From positions 1 through 64,000 of the forward strand of contig JBAMJV010003029.1 of the NCBI GenBank assembly GCA_037951105.1: DNA of 64,000 nt. The letters are read 5' to 3'. Below are positions 1-50,902 of the stretch, piece by piece. The stretch comes from Echinarachnius parma (Eukaryota > Echinodermata > Echinoidea > Clypeasteroida > Echinarachniidae). Every line of letters begins with the position of its first letter. Position 1 is the stretch's first letter. Both the position numbers and the translations under genes were made by a program. The notes beneath the pieces were generated by a model. That model saw only the letters and a list, made by a program, of their open reading frames with translations, was not told where the DNA came from and ran no database searches.

Positions 1-318
1 ATACATCTTTACAGGGAAATACAACTTAATCAAGAAACAGAAATACGCCGTGTTCAACATGTTAAACAAATACAATATAAAGAACGTTTGTAAATAATAA
101 ACCTAACACAGAAAGTAACTACCGCAAAACAACTGCTCATAATTTCATAACCAAGAATCGATTTCAGATTTCTTCGCGCCAATACATTCATATGGTAGTT
201 AGAAAAACAATGTATACAAAAAAAGAGGTAACCATTAATCCATGGCTTGGTAAGCACACATTAAAGAGAAAACTTACATATTGACACATTCGCAAAATTA
301 TTATTATTATTTATATAA

Positions 319-452
319 TATTGACTGGCCTTGAGGGGATACGACATAATATTGCCTGAACTAGATTCGTAATGCCCGAGTCGAAGACGAGGGCAATATG
401 GATCCTAGTGAAGGCAATATATGTCGTATCCCCCGAAAGAGCCAGTCAATAT
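319..452. repeat. Palindromic ATTGACTGGC element, copy 1
   Basis: Starts AATATTGACTGGCCTTGAGG and ends GCCAGTCAATAT, with inner complementary blocks around GAGTCGAAGACGAGGGCAATA. It forms a hairpin and leaves no ORF. Similar copies lie at 37779-37913 and 39806-39945. Confidence 0.75.
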
Positions 453-459
453 CATTATT

Positions 460-850
460 ATTACCCATATCAGACATCTTGAGCAGTAACGGAAATTAGT
501 AAAATGTAAACTTTGTATTAAACTTTGTATTTAAACATACCAAAACCAAGTCTCTGCTTGATAAAATGTCACAAGTACGGCTGCGGCTTGTTTCGTGTAC
601 ACACCAATGGCAAATCACTATCGCGAGATTTTTCCCGCGGGCCAGTTCACTTTGTAAAATTTCGACTACGAATCGTGAAGTGCCCGGATGTCAATATTCC
701 CCTCTTTTTTAACACGTAAATCCCATAGGCTATTGTGAAAGAGGGGAATATGGGAAATATTCCCCTATTTCACCTGCTGGCACTTGAAACGAGGGGAATA
801 TGATTTTGTAAAACCACAGCTCAGATGTCTGACATGGGTAATAATCAAGT
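460..850. repeat. Small inverted-repeat element next to the palindrome
   Basis: The ends are TTACCCATATCAGACATCTT and an inverted counterpart around 815-842 (ATGTCTGACATGGGTAAT). The same end motif recurs at about 37925 and 39395, flanking a longer 1.5-kb block. Probably a MITE. Confidence 0.55.
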
Positions 851-1486
851 TTATTGATTATTGGGAAATTTCAAAGTCCACTGTTTACCAATTGCAAATA
901 ATGCATTAAGACAAATGTGCTGTCTCACAACAATGTAAAGGCATGCGCAAGGTCTTGTGACTTTTGAATGGGGTTATTTTAATCTGTGCTCACTCAGCCA
1001 TGAGGTAATGAATATTTATTTACCAACAAAATCACATAACAACTGTAGAAATATTGTGGTAAAGATCTTAAAATAATGATCGGTTATGAATTATGAGCAG
1101 TTGCTTAGGGGGTAGTTACTTGTTGTGTTTGGTTAACATGTATCATTTATTTTATCTACAACACAATTAATAAATTAAGGAAAAGAGCAAAGATTACGAT
1201 TTTCTAGTTGGGACCAACCTTACTTAGCTTGGTGCCACCCCCTCCCCCCGCTCTCTTTGTAGTTTAACCCTTACAATGCTTTGTTTGAAATATGACAGCA
1301 TAATCTTACAGACGAACAAGACATACATTATCCATACACGGTGGCCTAGCGTATCCAGACGGATGGGGGCACACAATTTATTGGGGACATACTCATGTAT
1401 TTCTGTATTTTCCACAGGTTGCCCCGTATGTATTTTATTCTTAGGTCATATTTTGTATTGATTTATTTATTTTGGGAGGGAGCACC

Positions 1487-1690
1487 AGTGCACCCCTGTC
1501 CCATAGCCCCCCCGTCCCACCACTGTCCAGCCTGGAATCCAGGTGCCCCCCGTCATATAGCCCCGTCCCCCAAATGTCCAGCCTGGATTCAAGGTGCCCC
1601 CGTACCATAGCTCCCCGTCCCACCACTGTCCAGCCTGGAATCAAGATGCCCCCGTCCCATAGCCCCCTTCCCCCAAATGTCCAGCTTCGA
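1487..1690. repeat. C-rich minisatellite, left part
   Basis: About four units of roughly 50 bp, with CCCCCGTCCCATAGCCCC and CTGTCCAGCCTGGAATCAAG as the repeated core. It continues with the same unit at 3067-3490, so the L2-like LINE appears to have landed inside one array. Confidence 0.8.
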
Positions 1691-1697
1691 ATTAAGG

Positions 1698-3066
1698 TTA
1701 TAATAATAATAATAAATATTTCTTTTATAGCGCATTTCAAAACCGGAGGAAGTCTCAATGCGCTTTACATGGCAAAGACTTTACAAAAAATTTACATTTT
1801 ACAATGTCTACATACATCAAATAATATAATTTAACAGAGTAAAAATCAAAGCGCATCTTAAATTACAAGAAATAAGTCAATAGTTAACATAAAGAAAAAA
1901 ATGTAGCTACAAGCTTAACAAAAACATAATGTACAGTAAATCGGTATCAGTATTACAATGGCAAGTTATACAGTTCATAATCACAAATTTGCCTCTTTAA
2001 ATAGGTGGGATTTAAGTTGTTCTTTAAAAATGTTGGGGTTGGATTGGGAGCGAATTTCGTAAGGTAGCAAATTCCAGAAAGTTGGGCCGATAAAAGAGAA
2101 TGAGCGTTCACCGTAATTTGCTTTTGTTTTTTGAGGGGGTACATGAAGGAACTGCTGGTTAGATGATCGGAGAGATCTTGCCGGAGTGTAGATAGACAAA
2201 AGATCAGAGAGATAGCTCGGTGCGAGACCATGGATAGCATTGAAGACGAGAAGAAGAATTTTGAAACGGATGCGAAATTTGATTGGAAGCCAGTGAAGTT
2301 TTTTTAGAATTGATGTGGTGTGTTCTTTTCGGGGGGGATTTAGAGACAAGTCTCGCTGCTGAATTTTGTATTCTTTGAAGTTTTGTTACTTGTTTTACCG
2401 GAAGGCCTACCAAAAGGCTGTTACAATAATCGAGTAGAGACGAGACAAAGGCATGTACAAGAACTTCAGTACTGGACTTATTAAGGTATGGACGAATACT
2501 ACCAATTTTTCCTAAGTGCTAGGGAGGCAGTCCGACAGACTTTATTAACGTGAGCTTGCATATTCAAATGCTTGTCTAGAACAACACCAAGATCTCGCAC
2601 TGAGTTTGAAGGGGGGACCTGATCATTGCCTGATGTAATTGAGGAGAATTCCCGATATTGTCTAAACCTTGATGATAGATGAAGAACTTCCATATGGTTG
2701 TTGTTGAGAACAAGATAGTTGCACGCCATCCAGTCCCGAACTTCCCGTAGACAGCATTCTAGCCGCTCGATCACGAATTCCCTGTTGGAGTTGATGGAGA
2801 CGTACAATTGTGTATAATCAGCATACAGCATGGTTGAGAAACCATATGCACTGATTATGTCTTGTATTGGAGATGTGTAAGCTATGAAGAGAACTGGCCC
2901 TAATACTGAGCCTTGAGGGACACCCCATTGTAGTGAAGAAGGCTCTGATTACGCTCCCACGACGTTGACCACTTGCTCTCTCTCCGACAGGTATGAGGCA
3001 ATCCACTGGAGTGCTACCCCTGTTACTCCAAACCGTTCCGTTAATCGTGAGAGTAGCAAAAAGGTT
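1698..3066 (-). pseudogene. 5'-truncated L2-like LINE, RT C-terminal part, decayed
   Basis: Read from 3066 down, several frames give [33 protein letters not shown], then [56 protein letters not shown] and FWNLLPYEIR. This is the order of the L2 group. The catalytic YADD reads YADY, so the enzyme is dead. The 3' end carries GCGCATT and an ATT trinucleotide tail (1700-1715). Repeats of the same minisatellite lie on both sides. Confidence 0.82.
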
Positions 3067-3490
3067 TCCTTCCCCCGTCCCACCACTGTCCAGCCTGGAA
3101 TCAAGGTGCCCCCCGTCCTATAGCCCCAGTCCCCCAATGTCCAGCCGGGAATCAACGTGATCCCCCCCCCCTTCCGTCCTATAGCCCATGTCCCCCAACT
3201 GTCCAGCCTGGAATCAAGGTGCCCCCCCCCCCCGTACTTTAGCCCCGTCCCCCACTGTCCAGCCCGGGAATCAACGCCCCCCCCCCCCCCCTTCCGTCCT
3301 ATAACCCCCGTCCTCCCACTGTCCAGCCTGTAATCAAGGTGCCCCCGTCCTTTAGCCCCGTCCCCCACTCACCAGCCGGGATTCAACGTGCCCCCCTTCC
3401 ATCCTATAACCCTCGTCCTCCACTGTCCAGCCTTGAATCAAGGTGCCCCGTCCCATAGCTGTCCCCCACTGTCCAGCCTGAAATTTCAAG
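3067..3490. repeat. C-rich minisatellite, right part
   Basis: About eight units with the CTGTCCAGCCTGGAATCAAG core and variable C runs. It ends about 40 bp before the donor of the gene B exon at 3718-3530. Confidence 0.8.
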
Positions 3491-3529
3491 TACAGCCCCG
3501 AAAAAAAGTAAATTGAACAGAAAAAATAC

Positions 3530-3718
3530 CTCTGTCCTGCTGGAGAGTGCTTGAAGGTCCTGCGCGTCTTCTTCACATTGTACCTTTCGAATGAAGCCGA
3601 TCATTTCCCACAGTCCCAAAGAAGACATCTCCCTCATTTCGAACGTCATGAGCTCATTATATCGGTATGTTTGGATGAGAGAATATGTGTAAGACGCTAA
3701 CGCTTCCGTTGATGTTAA
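3530..3718 (-). CDS. Gene B exon: SY segment of the module (last one found)
   Basis: This 189-nt phase 0-0 exon runs from ttgtttag|TTA to ACAGAG|GTATTT. It includes SYTYSLIQTYRYNELMTFEM and ends LSSRTE, aligning with gene A exon 9. A homologue of gene A exon 10 should follow. The next 2 kb hold only minisatellite and LINE sequence, so the final exon is lost, diverged or beyond the left edge. Confidence 0.68.
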
Positions 3719-6700
3719 CTAAACAATTGAAAATGAATCAATTTGAAAAGTCCGTCATTATAACTAGTTTAATATGTCTGAACATTAATGAGCGTTTATC
3801 TTTTCCTGGCAAGATGTGTTTTATGCTTTAAACTGTTATCACTAATTGTACATTCATTAAGAAAAAGAACATTTCACAAAACCAATCCGCAATTTAAAAA
3901 TCATGGTATTATATCTACAAAGTCACCGTGAGAGATAACCAATTTTTCTGCACTACAGTACATAATAATGGGTGCGACGTAGATTACTCTTGTCACTATT
4001 GATTTTTCATAATTAATACCACAGTCTATATCAAACAATCCATTCATACTCAATTTAAAATATACTAAAGTGTACGATTTCATTGGGTGTGGTTGGGGTG
4101 CATTATCAACTGTTATGTTTTTAATAAATACATGTATATGACGAAGTGGATTGCAACATTTGGTACAAAATCATTCTGTACAACAATAACAAATTGCACA
4201 ATCAACTAACTTGTCTCAACTATACATTTGTTGTAATTATATTGGCAGCAGGTTCGACCTGACCAGTCAAAACACAGTTGTTTTTAATTTTGTTATTCAC
4301 GAGTGTTAGCTGCCCATGTAAACAGTTTCTAAATTTTTGTTGCTGTTGGTAAGACGACATTTCGCATTCTGTTTATGGGTAAATTTTATCCATTACAATA
4401 AATAAGTATGAAGTTCTAAGAAGTATGCAGCGCAGTCACTACTAATAACATTGCTTCCACGTTTATTATAATTATGTTCATAATACTTCTTTGGATTACA
4501 ATCATCTTCTTATTCATCTCTTTTTTCTTCTCTCTTTTCTTTTCTTTATTGATTGTGTAAAGCTTATTGTAAGCCTTTCTATTTGTGTGTGTTTTGCGTA
4601 GGTGCATTTTTATGTTTATGTGTTATATATGTTGACTAAAGTTTGTTAAAAGGGATAGTTGAGTTTTGGTATAGAGGGCGCTACACCCAAACAATTTTGC
4701 GAGATAATGAAAACCTGAGTGTCAAATTCGAAATAGCATACAATTTTAATGACGGAATAAACTTTATTCAAAATCGGTTCAGAAATGGCTGAAATATCCG
4801 TCAACATAACCATTTGTAATAATTGTGAGTCCCACAATTATTCGATTATTTTGATCCAGCCGTGTTTTTTTTAAATGCTTTGATCCTCTTTTCAAAAGTT
4901 AACAAAAGGAACGCCCTTTTAAATTTTAACGGCTCTTTTTTTTTAATGATAAGAGGCTTTTTACTTAGTCATTTGTTATGTTGTATTCATTTCGGGCATG
5001 GTGGAGTTATAACTATTACTTTGTAATGTAATGATGGAGGTTTGGGTTAGTCAAAATCAGTTTGATTAAAACTGGTTGCCCACTATTTTTTAAGAAGACA
5101 TGAATAAATAAAATGAATAAATAATTAATTAAGAACGTAAAACTCGAGATTTCGGTATTGAAAATACGTACAACGTATGCAGCTCTTGCACGTACAGGGA
5201 TAGGAAAGGGATATTCACCAGTTTCGGTTTAAACGGGAGACATTTTTTGGTGTCATAAATTAACTAAATCTAATTGGGAAAAGACACAAACTTCGTCAGA
5301 TATAGTTAACTATGTTCCATTAAGTTCGGTTAAAACATTCGATTTGATTACATCTTGGGGCCCACTATGTCTTCCCAATTTAAGAAAATATCTATCAATC
5401 ATATTTGAAAGAATAATAACAAAGTTTCAGAATGTTTTCCATGATCTCTCTATTGAATAATTGTTTTCTGTATTAAATAAATCACAATCACACAAGTTGA
5501 TCAAACGTATGGTTGGATTTTACAGGGGTCTGGACGGCGCCATATTGTATCAATGTATGTTTTTGATTAACAATTAAGTCCACGTAACTGAGCTGTCTTG
5601 ATGCCTTTCTACCATTTAAGCATGGATTGTCTGGTTCTTTGTTTGTATAATAACTTAAACCTACACAAATTCAGTTTGACCAGAGCTGCACCGCCCTTTT
5701 AACAACCATCTCCTGATGTATCGTATCGGCAGATCTTTTAATGTTTGTTTCTATTTTGTGCTTCACTGGGCCAGGTGTAGTGTTATTTTGACTGCTCAAT
5801 TAGATTTGGAATTTGGTGTTGCTGAGTTTGGACCAGATCTGTATCAGTACATTAATCTTAAGGATATGTAACAAAATATTCAATACAATTTACCACCTGT
5901 GTACCTGTTCTTTGTCCAGAAACCTCATTTGATGTGGTAAATGAGTGAACCCCTTTGTTGCTGGACTATCAACTGAAAGTGAACCAGTTCCTGACTCAGA
6001 TCCTGACAACGAGATGATGTCCATTTCGATGTCATCGTACGCGCACTTGTCTTTCACATTAAGCATCATTGCTGATATGTACTTCACGAACGCATCGTTG
6101 ACAGAGGCTGGTGGTTGAAGGGTTTTCTTAACATTTTCCCAGACCTATTAAACACGGAAACGCACATAACTGAGGTTAAAAGTGATCCAGAACACTTCAA
6201 TATGTAATATTATAATCTTTGAGTAGCATAATAATACAACTCATCGTTATGTAAGTATTCTCCGTTGTACCAAGCCTACATTATGTGAAGGGGATATTTA
6301 GCTTTACCAATTAAGTACAGGGAAAGGTTTGGAGTAATTTGTGGTTGTTTTGTTTCTGTTCTTTGTCATGATTATCAATTTTGATTGTGGATTGAAACAA
6401 CGAAGTTTAGTTGGATTCCATAATTGTCTGTGTTACAAGTATATAAAAAAAAAACACGCTTACCATATGAATATCATCAATCTCATACAATATGGACGTT
6501 TCTCTAAATTCTTCATTATGCGTCTCTTCGCAGAGAGTGAGCTTTGAATTCATATACCGCATGATGTTCTTCTTCATGTCCGTAGCCTGTTCTCTAGACG
6601 TGGCGATGATAAGTTTTTCTTGTGACAGCTGTGCAAAGGCAGTATTGGTTTCTTTTGCAAGATTTTCCATCGTATCCTGTATAAGGTTTTGCTGAAAATG

Positions 6701-9700
6701 CAAAATAAAAGGAAATGCCTGAATTTAAAGTAAAACATGTTTCTTGTGTATCGTGAGAAGAACAACTCTCAAATAGTTATTCTAATTCATGTGTTGATTG
6801 TGATTCCGCTTTCAAAACGTATTGCACATACAAAGAAACATATGTTGAATATACCTAACTGCACAATAAAACAAAGCAGGCTGGATAATTATGGTCATGT
6901 GGACTTTAAGCATTCCACATGATAGTGTTCATGATACGTATCAACACGTTATAAAATGAACACTCTTAATTGCAAACCATATTAAAGATCCAAAATTATT
7001 TGATTATGCACGTGTATAGCTGGTTCTTTTCACTTTTGTTTAATGTATCTATTGTTTTTCTTCCTGAGGAAACCAAATTTACGCAATCCAATATTGAGTC
7101 TTTTAAATTGACCACGGGGATTTGCACAAAATGTTGCAATCGATTATTAAGTTGTAATTGCAAGTCAGAAAACCGCCGCTAGGAGCAATAAAATGTGCGC
7201 ATTTAGTCACATGATATGACTTTCTTGCAATTATTCGCAACTTACGATCGCGTTCAAATCTTTGTGCAATACCCCATATATGTTAAGCATCAATGCTGAA
7301 AATAAAAAAGGGTCCAAGTAAGACATTTAATACTCCATCATATCCGTCCTTAAGGGATCAAGTAACATTGTCCAGATCATCAGAATGCGACTGTAATTCT
7401 AGCGGTTTCCTCATAAATTGTTGTGTTTGAATTAATAGAAGCATGGGGCCGGTATTGGTTTTCCGAATTTCCTTTTGTTAAATATGTATTAACGATTAAA
7501 GTGTTGAAATGTTAAACTATCCACTGGGTAGTGGCTATAGGGTACACAGTCAGTGCAATGAATGAGCGAATACCACTCTGCGTGTTTTGCTCATTATTTT
7601 CACACAGTACCGAATAAACATATCAAATAGCAACATTCTATCGACCATGCATGTTCCATTCTGTATGGTCTATAATGAAAATACTACACGAATTGAATTT
7701 AAATCTAAATAAATTTAGATGGCAGGGCTAAAAAAGGAAAAGGAAAAAAATAAATTGTCACTATTCACAAACTATTGGTGTCTACCAGTACTTACTAAAT
7801 AATTCTAGCTGGAACTAACATGAGTATTTGATCCTAACCCAATCGTTTCAAACCAAAATTAGAAACAAATCAAGCTCGTGCGATCTTATAAATATGGGGG
7901 CAAATATTGTGTTTACTACAAATCGGCAAACTAGACTATTTATTACGGTAAACAACATATATCCGGGCGTCGTTCAATAATAGGAGGAAGGGTCATATTA
8001 TGTGTAAGCTTTTCCTCCGAGTTCACTTACAGGCATTCGTTGACTATCATTTCTTCCGTCATGCTTGTAATTTTCCTTCAAATGTCTGTCATCTGTAGAG
8101 TACAAGGTAACATGTGGTATAAAGCATGCGTATATTCACTTGTATAAGCATGGCGAGGAAAAAAAACTAAATGTAAAGGCATTTCAAATTGGAGAAATCA
8201 TACATTTCATTAATCTTTAATCACATTTGTGCATGCTGAAAGATTCCTAAGGACGAAAGGCTTGATAACAGACACAATATGTAATATACAAATGTATTGT
8301 TTTTTAAACAAATGAAATATACTCAAAATAAATGTACCATTGGACACAGACAAAAGAAATCAGTTCAAAGATCCAATAGTGCAAACGTTTCTCAATTGTT
8401 CTCTAACGAGTCACACTGGTTTACATTACGTAGAATGCAATTTGCAGAGAAATACAAATGTATTGTTTAGAAGTTGATGCATAGCTATCTCTTGGATAAA
8501 AACAATTTACAATTGGCATGTATGTACCAGTTATGTGGCCAGCTTGGACAGTCAATCCGACGCTTCTTAGTTTTGTTTCAAGTAAAGCGCGTACGTCGGT
8601 GTCTGGGTCTTGATTAGCTGCCCACTGAGCCAGGAGTTGTTGTAGTTTTTCTTCGTTGAATTTATAGAGGATATCTTGCAAGTCTGTGTAAGTGAATCCC
8701 AACTGTATTCCTAATGCTGGTGCCAACATCGGATCGATCGTCTTGGTCAGTTTCACGATATAGTTTTCGGTCTGCGGTCTGTAAAATAATTAGTGGAAAT
8801 CTTAGAAAGCGGGCATTGATCATGTGCACGTGGAACCCACTTTTGTATTTCTACATATGCCTAACCAAATATACAGAGGGTATCGAAAAAAGGTAATCGA
8901 AGTTCAAAGGTCTATAATTTCAAAATTATGCATTCTCACATTTTCCAAGGGACATATTTTTTTAGAGAAAATGTATTCAGCTTTAATCTGACACCTTTCC
9001 TGATTCAGAAATGTCACACATCGCTGAGTTCTTTGTTGTTGAAAGTGACAAGTCCAAAACACACTTTCTACAAGTTTGGGCTAATGAATGAAAGCTTGAA
9101 TTTACAATAATGGTGCCACACTTTAATGAAAACATGAGTCTGAACAATTTGTGTTGGGTTTGCGAGTTATTTAATCGTTTAGCTGAATACATTCACCGAT
9201 ATCATGCATGATAAGGTACATTTTAATTGAACATGAATATCCGCTGGCCTGCCATTCACCAGAATTAAATTCTTATGTTGATATCATTCGTAAAAAAAAG
9301 ACAACTTGGATTGGAAACTTTGAAGAAGGTCAAGTGATTGGGCCATTTTTCTTCAAAGAAATTTACATTAACTGGGAACATGTACGTTCAGATGATACCT
9401 CAGATGGCGGAACACATTAGGAGACAGGTGCGAGGAGTATTTAGACAGATTCAGGACAGTGCCCATTTGCCCAAGCCCATCACCTTGTCGCTGTCATATT
9501 ATGGAGGGGAGCTCTGACTGTGGGGAAATGGTTATTGGGATACAAAATTAGATGGAATGACCACCAAGGTCATCTGATCAATATTTTCTTGAATTCTTCC
9601 TGTTTGGAAATTTTTGAAGACTAAGATGTTTACATCTTCCCGTAATCTGGATGATTTACAGGGCCGCAATCGACACGAAATTGATGTTTTATCCCCAAAA

Positions 9701-12700
9701 TTGAAACTTATCCTTAACATTTATGTGACACCGCCAAAACTTACCAAAATGGCTTTTGCACCTGTCATCATCAACAGCAAAGATGCGTGACATTGTTGGT
9801 TCAGAAAAGGTATCAAATTAAAGCTAAAGCTACATTTTACATTCATATCTTTTTTAAGATGTGAACATATCTAATTTTGAAGAAAAAAATCGACCTTTGA
9901 ACTTCGATTACCTTTGTTTTGATACACACTGTATATCAAATTAAAGAATCCTGTCCCACATTTTGCAAGATAAAGTTCCGAGGATCCGAGATTGTAGTCT
10001 TAGATGAAACGAAATTTAAGTACTTTATTTGCTTCGTGAAAAAAATAGTGGCTTATAACATCCGTTTCGTGGACCAACATTGATTGTAAGACCTCAACAT
10101 GATCATCGGTCGGAACCGCTTTTACCCATCTACAAAACTTCGCCTGTCTGTTGGTTAGCTATTTCGCACGGTGGTAACCAAGGCGTATTACAAACGGCAC
10201 TGCAGACAAGCTGTACTTTCAGCGTTTTTGTGTAATATAGGTTTTCCCGCTCAATTTTGCGATTATGCAATTAAAATTGATAATAGGAGCAAACGAATTC
10301 GCGCGATTTGCGATCGCCGTGTCAAAGCAGCATTCGAATTCTTAAATAGTCGTTCAAAATCAAGTAGGAGTAAGTGAATTTGCACAAAGAGCAAACCTTT
10401 TCATCAATGGTCATTCAAAACGGCACGAAGTGAATGCTGGCGCTACTGCACATTCGCGAATTCGCTTGCCCATTAATGAACTTCTGTGTCTATTCACGAA
10501 AGCTTATGCGTTTGCATGAATTCGTTTGCACTTATTCGGAATTTGGAAGACCGATACCAACGATTACGTGGTAATGCGTGAATTTGAATGACCCTTAATG
10601 ATTTCGATTGAAAAACGTGTAAAATTGAGTTCGAAAACCTATATTACTTGTTAATTACATCTGTATGTTGGGAAATATTATCACATTTCCTACATATCTG
10701 AAAAACATATCTCAGACGTTCTTTAACTTGTATGGAATAAATCTTTCTATTTTATCTGACTGTGTTTAAAGGGGAATTGAAATCAATAGTGTGCTCTCTA
10801 ATACCTTTTAATGAAAAGATAAGGGTCACAATACTAGTATATTAGTTTTATATCCCTCATCTAAAACTGTCCGTTATTTGTATTCAAAGTAGGAAAATGT
10901 AGGATTCCATGAAAGATTGAGAGTTGAAACTCCATTCATCATCCTATCCTAGCGCATGCAAAAATATAATTGTTGTGTCACAAACAATTTAAGCATTTTA
11001 AATTTTCCGGATGATTGTCTATGCCGATAACTCACCAGATTTGGTTGTTATCCTACAAAATATATATATATATATATATGGCATTTAGCTTTCAATCGCG
11101 ATAATTTGCTGCGCGTGAATGGGCGAGCTGTGAATACGCGAATCGATTGATCGATAGTATCGGTACTTATTTACAATTTTGCCCTGGAGTAAATAGTAAA
11201 ATACTATTTTCGGGGCAAATAGTAAAATGACGTCATTCAAAATACATAGTGTATCTATTTTTTTATTACATGACAATCTCTCGACCAATGATATGGCTAG
11301 AACATTCTTATGAGGGATATAATAATAAATAAGATGTACCTCTCATTAGCTCCACTCTTCGGTCCTGGGTTGGTCTCAATGTCGCCGGATAGTTGTAGGT
11401 GCATATCCGAAGTGTACAGACATGTTAAAGTTTGAATTATTGCTGAACCGAGAGCATGGCAATCGCGAATCACCGTCTTGCAGGAATGTTCCAGAACTTC
11501 ATTCTAAAAACAAAGAGGTAGAACACTGACAGCCCGCGAAAGGAATTTTCTAATGAATATGGCATTGCCGATTACATGATGCAAAAGACGATCCATTAAA
11601 CTTTGACTTCATGATGCAAAGTCAAACAAAAATACAATGAGGGCTCAGCCAGATGGTGGTTACTTCATTTCAGACATTTCAGGCGAGGGAGAAAATGTTC
11701 CTGGGGGGGGGGGGGGGGGGGGGGAGAGGGGAATGGGGTAGGTTGGGGGCTGAGGTATTATGCCCAATAGTTTTGTCCAAAATTTACACCTGAGCAGCCC
11801 CCCCCAAAAAAAAAAAAAAAAAACAACAAACAAACAAACAAACAAAAAACAGAAACAAGGTTTTCGCCTTCTGATGACCAAACATAATGTTGTTCATGGC
11901 TTAGTCCGAAAATACTACGATTTTGTCCGAATTTGAGACGGTTTTCACGAAAGTTAGATTACTTTGCCCGCATGTAATGGAGGGGGGCTGCAGCCCCCAG
12001 CTAGATCCCCAACATGACTGAAATAACTAATTATCTCTGTTGTCAGCCTAGTGCTTCCCTGTTGTCACCATGGTCATTATACGACAACAAATTATTTGTT
12101 GAAGTTGCATTCTGAGACGTCTTTCTTTAGAAATCGTTGTACAAAGGTACAATACAATACAATATAAGTTCTTCTAAGGCGCTTTACACACGTAAGTACA
12201 ACACTAACAACAATATAACATAAATGAAATACATAATAATCAATACATTAAATACATGAAATACAATTATATGCATAACTATAAAATGAACATGCAATTA
12301 CGCATAATAAATTATAAAATAACAAATTCTAGATTGACTATAATTGCTGGCTTATTTCTGCGACCAGTATATCATCAAACATAGACTGGTCTGATGGGCT
12401 ATACTTATTAGAAAATAACGCTCAAAATGGAAGTGCTTATACAATATACATGATTCAGATATTATTATTAATTTGAATATAGGTCATGTAGTGTTTCCCG
12501 GCCAATTTCGTAAGCTTCCATTCGTTTTGATACGCGTGGCATAACATTTCGTGAAATTGAGCTGAAGGCTTGCAATTGTGTTCCAAATTGCATTTTTTCA
12601 CACGATTTAGCTATTCGGTCAAGTGATTTACTATTTCTAGCATTTAATTGAAATAAAAACACGCTATTTGCTTTCAACTTCGCTAACGGATTTCACGGAA

Positions 12701-15700
12701 AGCGGTATTACGTAATAAGGGAGTTCGTAGTTAGGCTTTACGCGTACGTTTACGGCACAACCAGTGACGCACGCATTTTAAGTACAGAGCTCTATGCAGA
12801 ATTTCCGCGTGCTTGCGTGAATTCTCATTGTGTTTCGTTACGTTTGAAATACCTGACAAAAAAACCCTCACCTTAATCCTAAAATAGATAAAATTGAATA
12901 AATATAACCATTCATTTTAATTTTCAAACTTGAAGCTTGCAGGCTAAATAAATTTGGTTAGAATAAAACTCACATCTTTGCCCGTTCTTCAACACTTAAA
13001 AGAAAACAGTACACACAAATCTACGTACGGGGCCGTTTCGATTTCAATAAAAGCCCCGATACGAACGTTTGCATTTTTGTTAAAATCCGTAAATAGATAG
13101 AAAAAATAAATTAAAAAAAATCAGTCTCATGTATATGAGATGTCTATTATGATTAATTCAGAAAGAGCCAAATTTCCCGTGAAAACACGTTTTAAATGTG
13201 ACAATAATTGCACGAAGGTCTATATGACAACGGGCAATATCGATGTTTTTGGTACAGTGAATTGTCGTCTCAGAAAATGGCGCATGCGCAGTTTGTAAGT
13301 ACGAACTCCCTTATTACACATTTTCTCCTTTTAAATTGAATGACAATTTTACGAAATAGAAACACTTTTTCAATCGAATGCGAACAAAATGTTTTTGAAT
13401 GATTGTTATATGAATTCAATTGCTAAACTTTGAATGCAAAATACACCTGCTGTGACAAAATCGGCGAAATTAAATTAACATAACAATTTATTCGTGTGGC
13501 CAACTAACGAAATCGACCGAGGAATCCTATATTTACTTAACATTTCGAATTAAATATTCTGGTACATGCACCCCTGCCTAAATTTAGGTATATGAGTGGC
13601 CTAGGCCCTGTACCGAGGAGCCTGCTAAATGTACCTTGCCGGGTTGGCAAGATAATACTGCCGTCCCATGACAAAAGGAAGCAACTCTGTGGAATGAGTT
13701 TCTTAGTAAATGAAGAAAATATGTTTTTCTTTCTGACCTCTCAAACATAAAATCCTAATTCCCAGGTATGACATGTTTTTATAATGTACTCAGAGAAGGC
13801 ATTTCGGGTTGATATGTTTTGATTTGAAAAATCATTGTTTTATGCAAATTAAGCAGCATACTTCCTTTTGTCACAGTATATCTTGAATATTTGCACGCGT
13901 CATCCAATGACAAAAGGAAGCAACTCTTGATAATCTTAGAAGTCAGTATTGTGTGAGTACGTGCGTGTGTGTGTTTGTGTGTGTATCCATGTGTATGTGT
14001 GTATATACGTTTGTGTGTATATTATGTGCAAATATATGTGTATGTATGCGTGTGTGTGAGTGCATGTGAGTATGTGTCAGTGTGTGTATGTGTTAGTGTG
14101 TATCTACTCATGTATGTGTTGTATATGTGCGTATTTGTGTGTGTATGCGTGTGTATATGTGCGTATGTTTGCACGTATGTATGTCTGTGTGCATATATTT
14201 GTGTGTGTTTGCATGCGTGTGTGTGTGTGTGTGCGTACGTGTGTGTGTGCGCGTGTGTGTTATGTGCGTTTGTAAGTGTGTGTGTGCGTGTGTGTTTGTG
14301 TGGCTGTGCCGTGTGCGTGTTTCTGTGTGTGAGTGCGTGTGTGTGTAGGTGTGTCTGTGTGTTTGCTTGTGGGTGTGTGTGTATGTGTGTGTGTGTGTGT
14401 GTTTGCATGCGTGTGTTTGTATGTGTGTGTACGTGTATGGTTGTGCATGTGTGTTTGTGTTTGTGTTTGTGTTTGTGTCTGAGTCATTGGCAAAGCCAGC
14501 CAGGTAAAACAACATTTCATCAAGTTTATCATTTTCTGCAAAATTTCCCACACAAAAGTCTACATGTGGGACAATAATAAACACACAGCATCAGAACTTG
14601 TGCTGTGAAAAAAAAAGAAAACGTTATATTTTTTATTCACAGTCAGCATTTTGATTGATAAATGAAATGGGTTTTAAATGTATATATATACTTCAGTCAA
14701 AATACACTAACGTTTCCTTCAGATGTGCAAACAGATTAGCGAATTTCAGCATTTTCTGTATCAATTCTGGTGCAGTGGTTGACAGAAATTCAAGGAGAAA
14801 AGTGAGCTGCACTTAGGCGCGCTCTGATTGGCTGATTGGGAGATCAATGCACACATGCCACTTCCATGCTGATAGGTGATTGGCTGATTGAGTTGCTTCC
14901 TTTTGTCATTGTTTTATGAGGAAATCTTTAGAGTTGCTTCCTTTTGATATATCTATATTTCGGAAATTAGGGGCCTCAATTTTTTCACCATCATGTAGAG
15001 CATACAAAAAATACCCCAAATCAAGTAAAAAGTCGATTTTGATAAATTCAGAGTTGCTTCCTTTTGTCGTGGGACGGCAGAATACCACTAGGCAGCGGAT
15101 TTTAGGTTAAGATGATCAGTTCAATGGTCAGATTTGTTCTCATTCATTGATGTTTGAAATTAATATTCAATAGCAATAATAATAATACTGTACAAGTATT
15201 ATTTGGCGTAATATATTATATTTTATATGCAACGTAAACATTTCGATAATGAAAACAAAACAAAACAAAACAAATCAGGGGCGGATCTAGCTTTTTGCTA
15301 AGGAGGGGGGGGGGGGCGGGGGGGTTTGACCCGATGACGATGCGGATCATCGTCCACGAGCCGCGAATCGGTGATTTTTTGTTGTTGCTATTTTGAACCC
15401 CCGTAAGTGATTTTTTCACCCTTTTTTCACTTTCGTCCACGAGCCACGAAGCGGCGAATTTTTGTGCTATTTTGAACCCCGGTAAGTGATTTTTTTAGTG
15501 ACTTTTTTTTCACTTTCGTCGACGAGCCGCGAAGCGGCGATTTTTTAAAGCTATTTTGAACCCCCGTAAGTGTTTTTTTTCACTTTTTTACTGATACATT
15601 TTCACTTGGCAGCCGAAGGGGGGGGGGGGGGGTTTAAACCCCCTAACCCAAATTAACGAACATGGACCTTAACTTGTTAAAGCTAGCGATATTTTTGTTT

Positions 15701-16410
15701 ACTATGTTTACTACCCAGTTTTGCTGTTACACCGGACAACTCGTATCTATTAACATGATTAATTACGAAATGAATTATGCCTCCAAGTGTTACATACTAT
15801 TATACATATTGATAGAGATGGGGATGGAGTTAAGATGCGGCTTTAAATGGGGAGAAACTCATTAGAAGATGACACAGTATATTTTGACAGACATTTTCAC
15901 GTTACCTTCATCATCTTCACACAAGTGTTCACAAGTGTCGCGCTCCGTTGATAGACAGTCCCGAACGTCGACTGATCAGCATGTTCCTCAACCGTCGTAG
16001 AAGGTTGCCGCAAAGAGCTCGAAAAAGACGTAGCTGTGTTTGACAATGGACCAACATGACACTGTGTAAGGTCCTTATCCTTCCGTGGTTGGTTTAAGTG
16101 TCCCAGTTTCGATACGTCTTGGTTATACCCTGATGACTGGGAGCATGCTCTTGTGTTACAAGTTCTTGTTGACGATCGATGTTTCCCCTTATCACGTGCT
16201 AATCCCACGTTTTTCTCGGTGAGAGAAGTAGTGTGACTTGATGAAAGTTTGGATGGATCCGACCGATCTGCCCGTTGTGAGAGCAGGGCCAATTCAACTT
16301 CTTCAGGATCTACCTCTTGAGAAGCGAGGACCGGCCGTGGCCGAATTATGAACGTCCCTATCTTTACCCGCCAGGCACACAGCGATATCGGCATCTTGTA
16401 TGGGTGGTTT
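3530..16410 (-). CDS. Gene B: Ser/Thr-rich segment, 2A-like motif, death domain, novel module (partial, 7 exons)
   Basis: Predicted exons: about 16394-15906, 11503-11340, 8778-8528, 7295-7246, 6691-6464, 6144-5905, 3718-3530. Downstream phases are 0, 0-2, 2-1, 1-0, 0-0, 0-0, 0-0, and every junction agrees. From the ATG at 16394 this is 537 codons: Ser/Thr-rich region (1-163), 2A-like motif ending at Gly210/Pro211, death domain (about 224-297), then a module similar to the gene A tail (303-537). The 2A motif class makes ribosomes skip one Gly-Pro bond, so the expected products are an upstream protein ending NPG and a death-domain protein starting with Pro. Both ends are open: the 5' border has three candidates and the last exon ends at a donor with no partner found. 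It could be its own gene or an extension of gene A. Confidence 0.72.
4087..5904. other. Gene B intron sequence; dispersed repeat near 4650-4900
   Basis: No exon-like segment was found. The block 4650-4850 (AGGGCGCTACACC, AAAATCGGTTCAGAAATGG) resembles 50640-50790 and part of 43260-43700, suggesting a dispersed repeat of unknown class. The rest is AT-rich sequence. Confidence 0.4.
5905..6144 (-). CDS. Gene B exon: DAFV segment of the module
   Basis: This 240-nt phase 0-0 exon reads VWENVKKTLQPPASVNDAFV at the start, then KYISAMMLNVKDK and MDIISLSGSESGTGSLS. The DAFV(R/K)YI and DIISL(T/S) positions match gene A exon 8, and both are followed by a Ser/Gly-rich linker. It ends FLDKEQ at GAACAG|GTACAC. 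Confidence 0.75.
6464..6691 (-). CDS. Gene B exon: helical module, first segment
   Basis: This 228-nt phase 0-0 exon begins QNLIQDTMENLAKETNTAFA and ends YEIDDIHM at CATATG|GTAAGC. The heptad-like charged pattern suggests a coiled coil or helical bundle. It corresponds by position to the shorter exon 7 of gene A (36609-36472), with only weak sequence resemblance. Confidence 0.7.
7246..7295 (-). CDS. Gene B small exon linking death domain and module
   Basis: This 50-nt exon lies between an excellent acceptor (ttttttattttcag|) and an excellent donor (GCGATC|GTAAGT). It is open in only one frame, the one required to pass from phase 1 to phase 0, and reads LMLNIYGVLHKDLNAI. It occupies the place of the 65-nt exon 6 of gene A. 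Confidence 0.68.
8528..8778 (-). CDS. Gene B exon: death domain
   Basis: This 251-nt exon runs in phase 2 to 1, from ttattttacag| to ACTG|GTACAT. The protein shows the six-helix death-domain pattern: LAPALGIQLGFTYTDLQDIL (helices 1-2), LQQLLAQWAANQDPD with the conserved core Trp (helix 5 region), and ALLETKLRSVGLTVQAGHI (helices 5-6). Death domains form homotypic assemblies in apoptosis and innate immune signalling. The frame stays open past the donor to a stop at 8421, so a form ending here is possible. The phase-1 donor matches the next exon exactly. Confidence 0.82.
8874..9931 (+). mobile_element. Degenerate Tc1/mariner-like transposon in gene B intron
   Basis: Inverted ends pair CAGAGGGTATCGAAAAAAGG with CAGTGTGTATCAAAACAAAG (read inwards), continuing to TCGAAGTTCAAAGGTC. 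TA flanks both ends (8872-8873, 9932-9933), the target duplication of this superfamily. Inside, a plus frame (9208-9420) reads GNFEEGQVIGPFFFKE and the neighbouring frame YVQMIPQMAEHIRRQV, the order seen in mariner transposases just before the last catalytic aspartate. Stops and frameshifts abound, so it is inactive. Confidence 0.75.
9932..11339. other. Gene B intron, no gene seen
   Basis: AT-rich intron between the death-domain and 2A exons. It contains GCGAATTC-like short words spread over 10200-10560 and a TA microsatellite at 11060-11079. Nothing with coding character was found. Confidence 0.5.
11340..11503 (-). CDS. Gene B exon carrying the 2A-like motif
   Basis: This 164-nt exon runs in phase 0 to 2, from tttgtttttag| to AGAG|GTACAT. 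It reads NEVLEHSCKTVIRDCHALGS and later LQLSGDIETNPGPKSGANE. The last two bases (AG) join the A at 8778 to give Arg, so the frame flows without a break into the death-domain exon. Good splice sites and this phase agreement argue that the motif is expressed as part of the gene and is not a chance or LINE-only sequence. Confidence 0.75.
11360..11428 (-). other. 2A-like ribosome-skipping motif
   Basis: The sequence LTCLYTSDMHLQLSGDIETNPGP fills this span as two parts: an upstream LTCLYTSDMH and LQLSGDIETNPGP. The end fits the class-1 2A consensus D-(V/I)-E-x-N-P-G-P at every fixed position, with the usual upstream Leu residues and Gly before Asp. In this class the ribosome fails to join the final Gly and Pro and then continues. 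2A-like sequences are known in sea-urchin NLR genes and in some non-LTR retrotransposons. Activity here is inferred. Confidence 0.8.
12150..12420 (-). repeat. Probable LINE/SINE 3' tail
   Basis: CAATACAATACAATATAAG followed by TTCTAAGGCGCTTTACAC is the reverse complement of the common CR1/L2-type 3' end (GTAAAGCGCC...TATTGTATTG). No coding part is recognisable upstream. Confidence 0.45.
12712..13317. mobile_element. MITE with 18-bp inverted ends
   Basis: Left end GTAATAAGGGAGTTCGTA (12712-12729) and right end TACGAACTCCCTTATTAC (13300-13317) are perfect reverse complements. The interior has no ORF. It lies in the gene B intron between the exons at 15906 and 11503. Confidence 0.78.
13658..15080. 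mobile_element. 1.4-kb DNA element with 32-bp inverted ends and internal TG array
   Basis: The first 32 bp (CTGCCGTCCCATGACAAAAG...) and last 32 bp (...CGTGGGACGGCAG) are reverse complements with one mismatch. AATA flanks both sides (13654-13657, 15081-15084), suggesting a 4-bp target duplication. The subterminal motif ACAAAAGGAAGCAACTCT recurs near 13909 and, inverted, near 14891, 14934 and 15052. Half of the interior is TG-rich low complexity. No transposase is present. Confidence 0.82.
13955..14482. repeat. TG-rich low-complexity tract
   Basis: About 530 bp of degenerate TG/TGTA dinucleotide repeat inside the element at 13658-15080. Long open frames on both strands here are repeat artefacts. 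Confidence 0.9.
15277..15650. repeat. G-run repeat with ~75-bp subrepeats
   Basis: Opens CAGGGGCGGATCTAGC and holds three units with CACGAGCCGCGAAGCGGCGA and GCTATTTTGAACCCCCGTAA. The same family occurs inverted at 35560-35735 (GCTAGATCCGCCCCTG). Confidence 0.65.
15906..16394 (-). CDS. Gene B exon: Ser/Thr-rich cytosolic segment
   Basis: The open frame ends at TGAAG|GTAACG in phase 0 (15906). It is rich in Ser, Thr, Arg and Lys (for example SKLSSSHTTSLTEKN) with acidic EVDPEEVELALL near its start, and looks disordered. Three 5' borders are possible: the ATG at 16394 as translation start, an acceptor giving 16410 (phase 2), or an acceptor giving 16315 (phase 1). The last would suit splicing from a phase-1 transmembrane exon. 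No known domain is seen. Confidence 0.6.
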
Positions 16411-17593
16411 CTAGGGAGTATTATGAAAGGAAATATATTTTCAATATAGCCTTATTATGGTGTTGGGGGAAAATGTTAATGGAAGAAATGTCAGAGGAAA
16501 TAATGTGAGAGGTATTAATGTCAGTGGTGAAAATGGCAGTGGAAAATGTCATATTGTAAACAAATGTTAAAGGAAGCAACTCTATTTCAAACATGATTTA
16601 CAAATTACCATAGTTTGTAGCTTAAAGTGTAAATCCATTGAAAACAGGCTGTAGTTTAATTACAATATACCTTTATAGAAAGCTACGTTAATGCAGAATA
16701 TGAATATATTACTTTCCAAGGACTCACTCATCTGAGAAAGAAAATGGGCAATATTTTGAACACCGTTTCAACTATACCGAATCAAGCGACTTGGCGGAGC
16801 TCCATGATAAACATTTTTTTTTGGTGACGTCACTCCAGTGGGATTGAGCAGGAACTGTTATATTTCAGTTTGTTACACCGCAAGTTTAGTTATTTTTAAA
16901 ACTATTTTCTGAGCATTTTGGTGGTTGAAACCTATTGTATCAATAGTTCAATAACTTATATTCGTTGTTTAGTTATCATATGGTGCTTTCTGTATCTGAA
17001 TTCGTAAAAAATTGGTAAATCAATCACCTATAGTCTGACGAAGGAAAGTCGTGATTCCCCAGCCTGTTGGCGGAATGCCCGTCGGTAGCTTCCCGTGAAT
17101 GCTGCGCTAGCTACTGCAGCTGCACTTCGACGCGCGGTTTCACGGGGGTTTATAGCTATAGGCCGTTTATTAGCGACTAGAGTCGAATTAATCCATGCTA
17201 TATCCAGCACAAATTAGACATAGGAAACTACTAAACCTTTTCGTCGTCTTTTCTTTCCTGATTTACATAAATAGTATACTTTTCCTATGATTGTCCTGAT
17301 TTTCAAATAATCTTTACTGATTCCCGGGCGACCACCATTTTTACTTTGATAATGAAGAGGGTCCACCTCTCTAGTGAAACGGTGTGTCGCAGCAGTGAGT
17401 GCTAGTGTATTACAGTGCATATGCCATGCATGCCCGGGATGCGAAATTTTTTTTTCCTACGAACTTTTTTCTCTGGCGCATGCGCACATGATTCCTACGA
17501 ACTTTTTGTCGGATATCAGACTTGAGTGAAAACTCTGCATGATACATTTACTAAATGAAACGCTACTCACCATGTATTATGGCAAAAGAAAAG

Positions 17594-17667
17594 TAGAGTC
17601 ATAGAGAGGATTCGAACCCATGACCTCAAGATCTGAAGTCCACAGCGTGACCAATAGGCTACGTAAA
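17594..17667 (-). repeat. tRNA-like sequence, probably SINE-derived
   Basis: On the minus strand GTAGCCTATTGGTCACGCTG resembles a pol III A box, and GGTTCGAATCC is a perfect B box at the usual spacing. The acceptor-stem pairing is poor, so a tRNA-derived SINE head or pseudogene is more likely than a working tRNA. Confidence 0.5.
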
Positions 17668-17908
17668 CCGATGATGGTCAGTATGGTCTCATTGTAATTA
17701 TAACCCTCAGACTCAATCCTAGTTATGAATAATTCATTAGGACAAAAAGTTCGTAGGATGCTACTAGAGTACAGCTATGTATAGGCCGAGCCGTCGATGA
17801 ATAATGTCTTTCCTTCGTCAGACTATATGATTGATTTATCAATTTTTAACAAATTAGATATCGAAACCAATAAAATGATAACTAACAACGAGGTAAGTTA
17901 TTGAACTA

Positions 17909-18903
17909 CATGACGTGAACAGCCCATTAGAGCTCTTCCCAAGTAAAGTACAGTTTAGTAGGGTGCAAGCTCATCAAATTCAACCTCTCAGTAAAAGGGT
18001 ATATTGAGGGGATTATAAAGATTAGAGACCAAGCTAGGCAAGACCCTTCCATTGTTGTTTTTGTTAATCTGACCACACAGTGAAGCCAACACTAAAACTT
18101 GAAGGTTACTGGTGAACCTGTAACTTGTCTATACTCTACAAAAATAGAGCTTCCACATTTCTCTTCTAACGTGTTGTTTGCCTTTATTATATAGTAAGAG
18201 AATAATAAAATAGGGTTAGATTTTTGTAATGCCCCTTTATTATGACGACATCTATCATTGATATCATTCAGTATATATGAGGGTTAATGAACGGTCATAA
18301 ACCTCATAAACGGCATACAGTAATTTGTTGCAAAAGCTGACGTAAATTTTTGTTTTTTTAACCAGGAAGCAATGATCTTTTTAAATGAAACTTTCACACA
18401 TCATTCAGACATATTATTACAAGAATTTAGGTATTTTGGCAAATCATTTTGGCCTATTAGAAATGGACCACTTCTACAAACAACACCAACAACAAACTCG
18501 GGTTCAAGTAATCCTCGCACATCATTTTGGTCCATTAGAAACTGACCAACTCTACAAACAACACCAACAAACTAGGGTTCAAATAATCCTAGCACATCAT
18601 TTTGGTCCATTATGAACTGACCACCTCTACAAACAACACCAACAACAAACTAGGGTTCAAGTAATCATCGCACATCATTTTGGCCTGTTAAAAGGACCAC
18701 CTCTGCACACTGCTAAAGATCTCAAAAATAATCCCCTCAACTCTGCCCTGAAGCCATATAAACTATAAGGTGGCCTATTCCCCTAAGAGGATTAAAAAAC
18801 TTCCTCTGCCAAGGATTAGGAAGGTAGGGATTAGGAAGGTATTAGGAGATAGATAGAGTGTGAATTCGATGAGCAAATTTTCTAATGGGATGTTCTCGTC
18901 ATG
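17909..18903. mobile_element. 1-kb TA-flanked element nested in the foldback
   Basis: The ends CATGACGTGAACAGCCCATT and, inverted, CATGACGAGAACATCCCATT are flanked by TA (17907-17908, 18904-18905). Removing it restores the right arm of the surrounding foldback, which independently fixes the insertion point. Part of the interior (18140-18420) matches 44545-44830. No ORF. Confidence 0.78.
18440..18705. repeat. ~73-bp tandem repeat, about 3.5 units
   Basis: Units contain GCACATCATTTTGGTCCATT and CTACAAACAACACCAACAA. It sits inside the nested element. Confidence 0.8.
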
Positions 18904-19347
18904 TATCAATATAACAAGTTTCAATCACCAAAATGCTCAGAAAATAGTTAAAAAAAAAACGAATCTTGCGGTGTAGCACACACTGAAATATGGCAGTTCC
19001 TGCTCAATCCCACTGGCGTGACGTCACCAGAAAACCATGTTTGCGAAGCTCCGCCAAGTCGATTGATTCGGTATAGTTGAAACGGTGTTCAATATATTGC
19101 CCTTTTTTCTCTGATGATTGAGTGCTTGGAAAGCAATATATCCATATTCTATATGATCTTCTATCCGTAGAAGTATATTTCAACTAATGTTGTGTTTTTC
19201 AATGAATTTTTGCTTGAATACATTTTCCTGGATATTTTACCACATGACAAGAATAATATTGGGGGACTGTTAAACCAGCAGATACTTCTAGAGATATTTT
19301 ATGAGCCAATTTCGCTGAGATCGCGATTTCTTATGTTCGACCATTGT

Positions 19348-20400
19348 ACACACTAAGAAAAAATGGTTGATAAATGGTGCAAAGTAACGGAAAAGGGTGC
19401 AGACTCGGCATAGGATTAACGCTAATAAGGCCGGGGGGAGGGGGGGGGGGCATAATGGCCCCCCCCCCCCTTCCGTTATTTGTTTGTATTGCTCCAAAAC
19501 GCGGTAAGATGACGCGCCGCTGCTTAGTGACTTTTTTCTTTCAGGTCTTGCACATATTTTAAAACAAAAATTTTGAAAATCGGACCTACCGTTACGAAGT
19601 CACGTGATTTCGTGATTTGTGTACAAAACATATGGAAATATCAGTTTTCGTAAAATGAGGTATATCATTGGTTATTTGGTCTTGTTTACATTTTATATGT
19701 TTGTTTTGGGGTTCAAAATAGTTGAATTATAGTTAGAAATAAAATAAACAACAAAAACAATAAAATACATAAGTAAAAAAAAAAAAGAAATACATAAGAA
19801 ATTATAAAAACAATATAAAACATAAGGAAGAACCTGGCTCTTCCAAATCTCTTTGTCGTATTATTATTCCAAATGCTCTAAAGAATATATTTAGTGAAAA
19901 CCAGAGTTCAATTATGAAGAATATAGGATTTATGGGTAAAAATATGAATTTTATGACCTTATTTGCATAAATTACCATAAATATGAAAATAAATTTGTCA
20001 AAAAATTAAAATTACAATTGTATTCTATACACTTCACTTTAATATCATGCGTGCACATTTTCACGGCGATCGGCTGCTCCGCGGCCGAGATCTTAAGGGG
20101 GGGGGGGGGGGGCATAATGTCCCCCCCCCCCCCCAGGCGTAGGAAGACCTCAATTAGCCCGGCCTTTTTAGGGTTAAAGTTGCACCATTGTATGCACCTT
20201 TCAAGGTGCATTTCTGCTAAGGAACAAAGTCGCACATTTCTTAATCTTGTTCCTATACCGTGGTCCTGCTGCACGCATGTTTTTATGTACTCCTCTATTA
20301 ATACACGATTCGTAAACTCTATGTTAATTACCACATATATCTCACACTATTATGAGTGTATAGTCTTATGTCTTTAAATTAATATGTGCCAATTTAATTT
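19348..20400. repeat. GGTGCA-type MITE copy split by G-run insertion
   Basis: Starts CACACTAAGAAAAAATGG then GGTGCAAAGTAACGG. The segment 20183-20400 (TTGCACCATTGTATGCACC...) matches 20820-21060. Between them (about 19430-20165) lies a G/C-run hairpin pair ending in AAGGCCGGG and CCCGGCCTTT. Exact ends are uncertain. Confidence 0.5.
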
Positions 20401-21060: not shown

Positions 21061-21317
21061 ACTATTGATGACAACTACAGCGTAGCCTATCATAAATGCT
21101 TACTCATGGCAAGTTCAAAAGCTGTTATTTTTTCTTCCTCACAACTTGACTAAGTTACTACATGTAACAACCGCTGGACACGCTCAATCAATCACATTGA
21201 ATAAGCAGATTATCTACCATTGATCTCTGAAAAGCAGGTCTAGATAAGCAAGTCTTATAACACAGTCACAGTCAACTCATCAAACTGCCAGTCTCTTTGT
21301 ATAGCTGTGTGAATACA

Positions 21318-22076
21318 ATGGCTGGCGGAGCTGGAAATAGAAGCCTAAAGAATCAACTGAAAGAAGCCATCATCGATGAAGAGATTCTCTCCATTATAAA
21401 GAAAGCCATCATTGAAGCCCTGGATCCCAGGTTTCAGGAGATTATCGATCGCCTCGATAAGCAGGATGGGGCCCTCTTCGATCTGCAAACAAAAGTTGAA
21501 AAACTTGAACATGGGCTGTCAAACCTGCAAAACAAACACCAACGAAGTGAGGAGAGAATACAGAAGCTGGAGTCATCGCTTAATGACCAGGAGCAATACT
21601 CCAGGAGGAACTGTGTGCGGGTCTTCGGGGTGCCTGAGAGAGACAACGAAAACACCAACCAGATCGTATGCGACATTGCCACCAACCAGCTTGGGGTGAG
21701 CCTGGCGATGGCTGACATCGACAGAAGTCACCGCGTCGGTCGTCGCAGTGAGCCCAAGGGGGGCTCCGCTTCCGCCACTCCAATGAAACCTCGGCCAATC
21801 ATCGTGAAGCTAACATCGTACCAGCATAGGCAGAACCTACTAAGGAACAGAAGGAAGCTAAAGGAAAACAAGACTGGGATCTCCATCTATGAAGATCTCA
21901 CCACGGCCAACCGGATGCTGCTGTGGGAGGCGTTCAAGGTTTGCAGCAACAAGGACAGCAAAGCCACATCAGCCTGGTCCATGGATGGACGGATAATCGT
22001 ATCCGTGCAAGGTACAAACAACAAAACTATCAAAAAACAAATCCACTCGAAGGAGGATCTAGCAAATATAAACTAA
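21318..22076 (+). CDS. LINE ORF1 protein, coiled coil plus RRM-like RNA-binding domain
   Basis: 252 aa from ATG 21318 (MAGGAGNRSLKNQ). Residues about 20-95 form a coiled coil with heptads of Leu/Ile (VEKLEHGLSNLQNKHQRSEE, RIQKLESSLNDQEQYSRR). Then come NCVRVFGVPE and DRSHRVGR, the signature of the RRM-like domain of L1-type ORF1p (transposase_22 family), and a basic C-terminal domain (RPIIVKLTSYQHRQNLLRNR). ORF1 proteins trimerise and bind element RNA to form the retrotransposition particle. It lies just upstream of ORF2 on the same strand. An upstream in-frame non-ATG extension to 21297 is not needed. Confidence 0.88.
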   Translation: MAGGAGNRSLKNQLKEAIIDEEILSIIKKAIIEALDPRFQEIIDRLDKQDGALFDLQTKVEKLEHGLSNLQNKHQRSEERIQKLESSLNDQEQYSRRNCVRVFGVPERDNENTNQIVCDIATNQLGVSLAMADIDRSHRVGRRSEPKGGSASATPMKPRPIIVKLTSYQHRQNLLRNRRKLKENKTGISIYEDLTTANRMLLWEAFKVCSNKDSKATSAWSMDGRIIVSVQGTNNKTIKKQIHSKEDLANIN

Positions 22077-22355
22077 TACACAAGCAAACATTGCTGTGAA
22101 CAATATGTCACCAACACAATGTCAACATCAAAATTATATTAAACTCTACTAAGATCATTGATGATTGACATTTTGCATAATTTTATAAATATTCTATAAC
22201 CCAGGACAATGAACATTATTTTTTCCATACCAGGTCAAATCTTGTAGTACTAAACAGTTTCGACTAGCCACGCTTGTCTGTTTTATATTTATATATTTAT
22301 TTGAATGATTATTTGTGAGTGTTTGTTGGTATTTGTATAGTATGCATGCTTGTGT

Positions 22356-50628: not shown

Positions 50629-50902
50629 TAAGGTATGTTTGGGTCTAGAGGGCGCAACAAGAACCATTATTTTATTGAGGTAAAAGAAACCTAAATACAA
50701 CATTTCACAGCATCAACTTTGTTTGATAAAAATCGGTTCAAAAATGGCCACAATATTGTTAAATGTATCTGTCATTGGAACGTTCTACGACATGCAACCG
50801 TAACGAGCGGACGTGCTTTTCGCGAGCTCCCGTCTCTACAGAAATGAGCCGAAAATCTCTACAATAATGAGCCAAATATCTGCACAGTGAGAATGTTAAG
50901 AA

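Follow-up and report, generated by a model that had tools for sequence, protein, structure and literature searches.

The gene in the window

The window, the whole stretch of 64,000 nucleotides analysed here, corresponds to contig C3028 of a 1.2 Gb assembly. Its minus strand carries seven exons of a candidate gene in which a 2A (StopGo) motif occupies a small exon of its own, placed between an upstream coding exon and an exon that looks like a death domain. The features are as follows; a slash marks a splice junction or the predicted skip.

15906..16394, minus strand: exon 1, from the ATG, MPISLCAWRV...KMMK, 163 codons, donor AAG/GTAACG, phase 0
11340..11503, minus strand: 2A/StopGo exon, NEVLEHSCKTVIRDCHALGSAIIQTLTCLYTSDMHLQLSGDIETNPG/PKSGANE(R), entry phase 0, exit phase 2
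11361..11383, minus strand: coding sequence of the 2A core DIETNPGP, with the predicted skip between Gly and Pro
8528..8778, minus strand: putative death-domain exon, 83 full codons, exit phase 1
8031..8092, minus strand: linker exon 4, DDRHLKENYKHDGRNDSQRMP
6464..6691, minus strand: linker exon 5, QNLIQDTMENL...DIHM
5905..6144, minus strand: linker exon 6, VWENVKKTLQPP...
3530..3718, minus strand: exon 7, LTSTEALASYTYSLIQTYRYNEL...; the gene continues towards the contig start

Joined in this order (16394-15906, 11503-11340, 8778-8528, 8092-8031, 6691-6464, 6144-5905 and 3718-3530), the exons give one stop-free frame of 541 codons. The 2A exon, 11503..11340, is bounded by the acceptor tgtttttag and the donor GTACAT, reads ...LQLSGDIETNPGPKSGANE and exits in phase 2, while the death-domain exon is preceded by ttttacag and gives the split Arg codon its third base. 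A sequence-only reading of this DNA had claimed a 2A exon with clean splice sites and a phase 2 join to a death-domain exon. Both claims hold up: exon, motif and splice sites are real and lie where they had been placed, and exon order and phase agree with the join, the next exon starting at 8778. The upstream exon that it had proposed was likewise recovered, ending at 15906 with the donor GTAACG in phase 0 and having its ATG at 16394, and it encodes the upstream protein.

The window gene lacks its 3' part, because the contig starts at window base 1. At the other end, the frame upstream of the exon 1 ATG is open back to a possible acceptor, and a further coding exon may precede exon 1. The degenerate core pattern GAYRTNGARNNNAAYCCNGGNCC has one match in the window, compared with any match in 0 of 100 dinucleotide shuffles. 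There is no second core in the window, and the sole other NPGP in the six frames, at 51059, lies outside a core.

A gene family in the same genome

The family was sought in the window's own genome. The 2A and death exons, used as queries, returned at least 74 matches (150 of 287 candidates scored); among the matches listed, at least 35 contigs contain the 2A exon and at least 39 the death exon. Both occur together in 33 contigs, and in all 33 the 2A exon lies upstream of the death exon on the same strand, with 560-13218 bp between the match starts (median 1948). Exon 1, for which all 117 candidates were scored, has 36 matches in 33 contigs, of which 32 also carry the 2A exon, and in each of these 32 exon 1 is the upstream one of the two, on the same strand; all three exons are found in 30 contigs. 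Three contigs with the 2A exon gave no exon 1 match (C5714, C10046 and C7366) and two gave no death exon match (C9331 and C3640). Exon 1 occurs without the 2A exon in C5583 alone, as a minus-strand match at 479-961 running towards the contig start, and the exon 1 match of C433 consists of separate pieces in differing frames. In C3640, exon 1 is doubled in tandem (31671-32186 and 35167-35682) ahead of a single 2A exon.

Clustering of 30 copies by their 2A and death exons gives 25 clusters at 97% identity and 22 at 95%; the copy number is therefore not due to haplotigs. In all 35 copies the 2A exon follows an AG and opens in the same frame, phase 0, and 33 of them reach a phase 2 donor, which in C14457 lies 12 bases early. 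The remaining two, C5714 (L025) and C347 (L050), carry a frameshift exactly at the core and are perhaps dying genes. All 34 death exons read follow an AG, and their first base is the third of the split codon. Ten fully fetched copies of exon 1 run stop-free from ATG to AAG/GTAAC or GTAAT in phase 0, with length differences of whole codons.

In a set of 5.8 billion proteins, no homologue at E<=0.01 was found with exon 1, 2A and death exons together or with residues 217-541 of the joined sequence. The family may thus be restricted to its lineage, or the set may cover animals sparsely.

Selection on the 2A core

Of the 35 copies, 33 retain an intact core, D[I/V]E[T/S]NPGP. Counting exon positions from 0, Leu 37, Gly 39, Asp 40, Glu 42, Asn 44, Pro 45, Gly 46 and Pro 47 are invariant in these 33, and the variable positions are confined to S/A at 38, I/V at 41 and T/S at 43. 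Silent changes in the core are common, as with the four Gly codons used at position 46.

Pooled over 528 pairs, the pairwise values of which are not independent, pN/pS in the 2A exon is 0.10 for the core (positions 38-46), 0.50 for residues 0-29, 0.44 for the whole exon and 1.45 for the six codons following the Pro. The corresponding values are 0.63 for exon 1 (10 copies), 0.25 for its first 20 codons and 0.49 for the death exon (17 copies). The tail after the core is thus freely changing beside a conserved core.

On a parsimony tree of 30 copies, built without the core and the tail, 27 codon changes but 3 amino-acid changes map to the nine core codons (39-47), as against 283 codon changes and 170 amino-acid changes for the exon's 45 remaining codons (Fisher p 6.8e-7, with tree changes treated as independent). 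That so many codon changes leave so few amino-acid changes indicates that protein-level selection keeps the StopGo peptide. The broken copies C5714 and C347 entered neither the pN/pS nor the tree counts, the tree also excluded C433, C3640 and C9331, whose death exons were not available in full, and C14457, whose last four counted tail codons are probably intron, was left out of the death-exon parsimony count.

In the window copy the core follows HLQLSG, with Gln where 24 of the 33 copies have Leu. 2A efficiencies vary, and because of this Gln the skipping efficiency of the window copy may be lower; the fixed ratio of products put forward in the sequence-only reading is accordingly a conjecture. 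The common upstream context, HLLLSG/AG, resembles by eye the LLLLSG-like class, as described in excerpts of PMC12846837.

The two predicted products

The first ~40 residues of the exon 1 protein are strongly conserved, and the remainder is low-complexity with a predicted C-terminal helix. The AF2 prediction is mostly disordered, again with a C-terminal helix, at a mean pLDDT of 52.5, and the two copies scanned have no Pfam match. For these two reasons, the idea that VRIG in exon 1 is a RHIM-like motif was dropped.

Averaged over 19 residues, the hydropathy of the upstream product peaks at 0.83 to 1.39 in ten copies; the peak falls within or close to the 2A exon in nine of them and near the N-terminus in C3488. 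The usual threshold for a membrane segment is about 1.6. The upstream product is thus without signal-like hydropathy, all ten copies lying below this threshold.

The exon downstream of the 2A exon looks like a death domain, since PDB profile and fold searches agree, although the sequence scores are weak. The window copy matches Pfam PF00531 with E 0.0035 and 17.9 bits, below the gathering score of 22.6, and 13 of 32 copies match it at E<=0.1 (best 0.00016). PIDD is the best PDB profile match, with E 0.0009 and 0.001 for a 17-row profile and 0.002 and 0.003 for a 32-row profile. The AF2 model has five helices, compared with the six-helix bundle of the death fold, at a mean pLDDT of 78.8 with residues 78-84 under 50. 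Its five best PDB fold matches are all death domains, with TM (query) of 0.58-0.70, and 0 of 38 matches reach a Foldseek E<=0.001; TNFR1, PIDD and ankyrin are among the proteins matched. We know of no StopGo element in PIDD, TNFR1 or ankyrin death-domain proteins; PIDD1 is split by autoproteolysis.

Pfam gives nothing for exons 6 and 7, and sub-threshold noise alone for exon 5. Further downstream, an ankyrin array is present on the same strand in three of seven contigs sampled (C1241, C3477 and C3251), the sampling being incomplete. C1241 contains an ankyrin exon (Pfam Ank) whose frame is open for 792 codons, as far as the sequence read extends, and ankyrin was detected in 5 of 10 samples of 300 bases in C3477 and in 2 of 4 in C3251. 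It is absent from the 300-base samples of C4563 (0/10), C433 (0/8) and C9084 (0/8) and from one 3 kb piece of C7480, and the ankyrin sequence of C1241, C3477 and C3251 has no match within window positions 1-20000. Exon 7 of C1241 (phase 0) is out of phase with the ankyrin exon, and there must therefore be at least one unseen exon between them. The ankyrin repeats are likely to belong to the same gene in the contigs where they are seen, which do not include the window copy.

Other 2A sites in the genome

The core has 438 matches genome-wide and the reversed-pattern control none. Ten of the 438 sites were read and sorted by eye into five of a second 2A exon type, two LINE-like sites and three of a third type. 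The second type (...KLFISKLHLTRAGDIETNPGP; L117-L119, L121 and L122) was matched at least 150 times, with 150 of 278 candidates scored, and seven of these 150 matches contain an internal stop. Six death-exon contigs are without the first-type 2A exon (C2530, C1579, C7253, C2902, C13053 and C12357), and in the first three a second-type 2A exon lies upstream on the same strand, at a distance of ~3.7 kb, ~6.8 kb and ~12 kb, respectively. Among the matches listed, some 2A exon is thus upstream in 36 of the 39 death-exon contigs. In the two LINE-like sites, L124 and L125, the core is followed by a CxxC-type sequence of a kind known from LINE proteins.

Several smaller observations were made alongside. 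The second type is apparently spliced, with phase 2 donors visible by eye in L117, L118, L119 and L122, as in the first type. The third 2A-bearing type (L120, L123 and L126) has YYxNSxSTFR...G and then the core. C218 and C881 each have two cores 285 bases apart. The window itself contains long reverse-transcriptase-type open reading frames at 21261-25505, 50900-57465 and 60808-63030, which are LINE-like by eye and have no 2A core.

Proposed mechanism and alternative explanations

The exon order, frames, splice sites, conservation among paralogues and selection on the core described above make it probable that this is a host gene family in which StopGo/2A, carried on its own small exon, yields two proteins from each spliced mRNA. 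We infer from the DNA that the exons are joined in the mRNA and that skipping takes place with some efficiency. Translation would run through exon 1 and the greater part of exon 2, and the ribosome would then fail to form the Gly-Pro bond at NPG/P. The upstream protein released in this way would have about 210 residues, comprising the conserved MPISLCAWRVRIG N-terminus, a disordered middle and a helical C-terminus ending in NPG. Resumed translation would produce a separate protein that starts with Pro a few residues ahead of the death domain and, in members where the array is visible, probably runs on into the long ankyrin array. This second product may act in death-fold (immune or cell-death) signalling.

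An unlikely alternative is that the exon was exapted from a 2A-bearing retrotransposon, with a motif that persists passively or for some unrelated reason and causes no skipping. The genome does contain many other 2A sites, and two of the ten that were read precede the CxxC-type sequence. Passive keeping, however, is a poor fit to a core with 24 silent and 3 replacing changes alongside a fast-changing tail, and exon 1 always goes with the 2A exon, C5583 excepted.

Dual targeting as in the sea-urchin NLRs, with the 2A acting as an N-terminal signal and partial skipping splitting the death-domain protein between the cytoplasm and the secretory route, is improbable here. The core and the DEATH neighbour are as in SpNLR2A (PMC4981915, in excerpt), and an in-exon Met (MHLLLSG) is present in 23 of the 33 intact copies. 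In the other 10 of 33, however, this Met is replaced by Leu or Val, and it was rejected as a start. The frame from acceptor to core is moreover open in 35 of 35 copies, in phase with exon 1, and the hydropathy maxima of the upstream product stay under the membrane-segment threshold.

That the octapeptide is an ordinary binding or cleavage motif within one full-length protein is very improbable, given that its changes (V/I, T/S at x, and S/A before Gly) are in keeping with the StopGo core and the L-rich context as published (PMC12846837, in excerpt) and that the same core recurs within unrelated flanks among the 10 of 438 sites read elsewhere in the genome.

The preferred reading, two proteins from one spliced mRNA, can be extended, as a tentative proposal, to StopGo as a standard modular exon in this lineage. 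At least two dissimilar 2A exon types (with at least 35 copies and at least 150 matches) might then feed death-domain and perhaps other immune-type genes, and a large share of the death-fold repertoire might consist of split polyproteins with a conserved partner peptide.

Relation to known 2A systems

The closest described elements are those of SpNLR2A in Strongylocentrotus purpuratus (Roulston et al. 2016, PMC4981915); according to excerpts of that paper, 14 are tabulated, they are 26-residue N-terminal elements, 12 are predicted to be signal sequences, and the host proteins have a DEATH-NACHT-LRR make-up. As far as these excerpts go, SpNLR2A and the present family have in common the core D(V/I)ExNPGP and an expanded, death-domain-bearing animal gene family, and some SpNLR2A lie within the N-terminal region, so an internal 2A position alone is not new. 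The statement in the sequence-only reading that no death-domain gene with this layout had been described was therefore too strong, as a 2A near DEATH is known in sea-urchin NLRs (PMC4981915, in excerpt).

The present family differs from SpNLR2A in that the 2A follows a conserved exon of ~160 codons (163 residues are encoded ahead of it in the window copy), in a hydropathy that is not signal-like (10 copies) and in the ankyrin sequence downstream in three contigs, the window gene being truncated where its contig starts. Of these differences the first two, the conserved partner exon and the hydropathy unlike that of a signal, are the firmer.

Odon reportedly described, in 2013, 2A sequences with the same core in APE-type non-LTR retrotransposons of cellular genomes. 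Those lie in the open reading frames of mobile elements, whereas the gene described here is a multi-exon, host-type gene with conserved introns. The viral LLLLSG-like StopGo/2A class shares with the family the core octapeptide and an L-rich upstream hexapeptide ending in (A/S)G, but the present copies are in host genes, on a spliced exon, and have Thr at the x position in 31 of 33 copies (PMC12846837, in excerpt). The same excerpts characterise StopGo as common among RNA viruses but only rarely used by genes of cellular organisms (PMC12846837).

A literature search of open-licence full texts found no published 2A death-domain or 2A ankyrin family, and within the literature searched the conserved partner protein, the layout and the scale seem new. 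If the proposed mechanism is correct, the genome would represent a rich host use of StopGo, with 33 intact copies, measurable selection on the core and 438 cores genome-wide, some of them probably in mobile elements. It would provide natural host material for the question of why animals couple two proteins co-translationally, for the effect of the upstream protein on its death-domain partner and for a possible regulation of skipping.

Additional observations

The minus strand of the window also encodes a Sushi repeat at 42335-42667 (Pfam E 1.2e-6) and an Ig V-set domain at 43841-44206 (E 8.3e-10), which perhaps belong to one receptor gene. In C14600, positions 8089-9429 match COX1 with 12 TGA codons inside, and this sequence is therefore probably mitochondrial.
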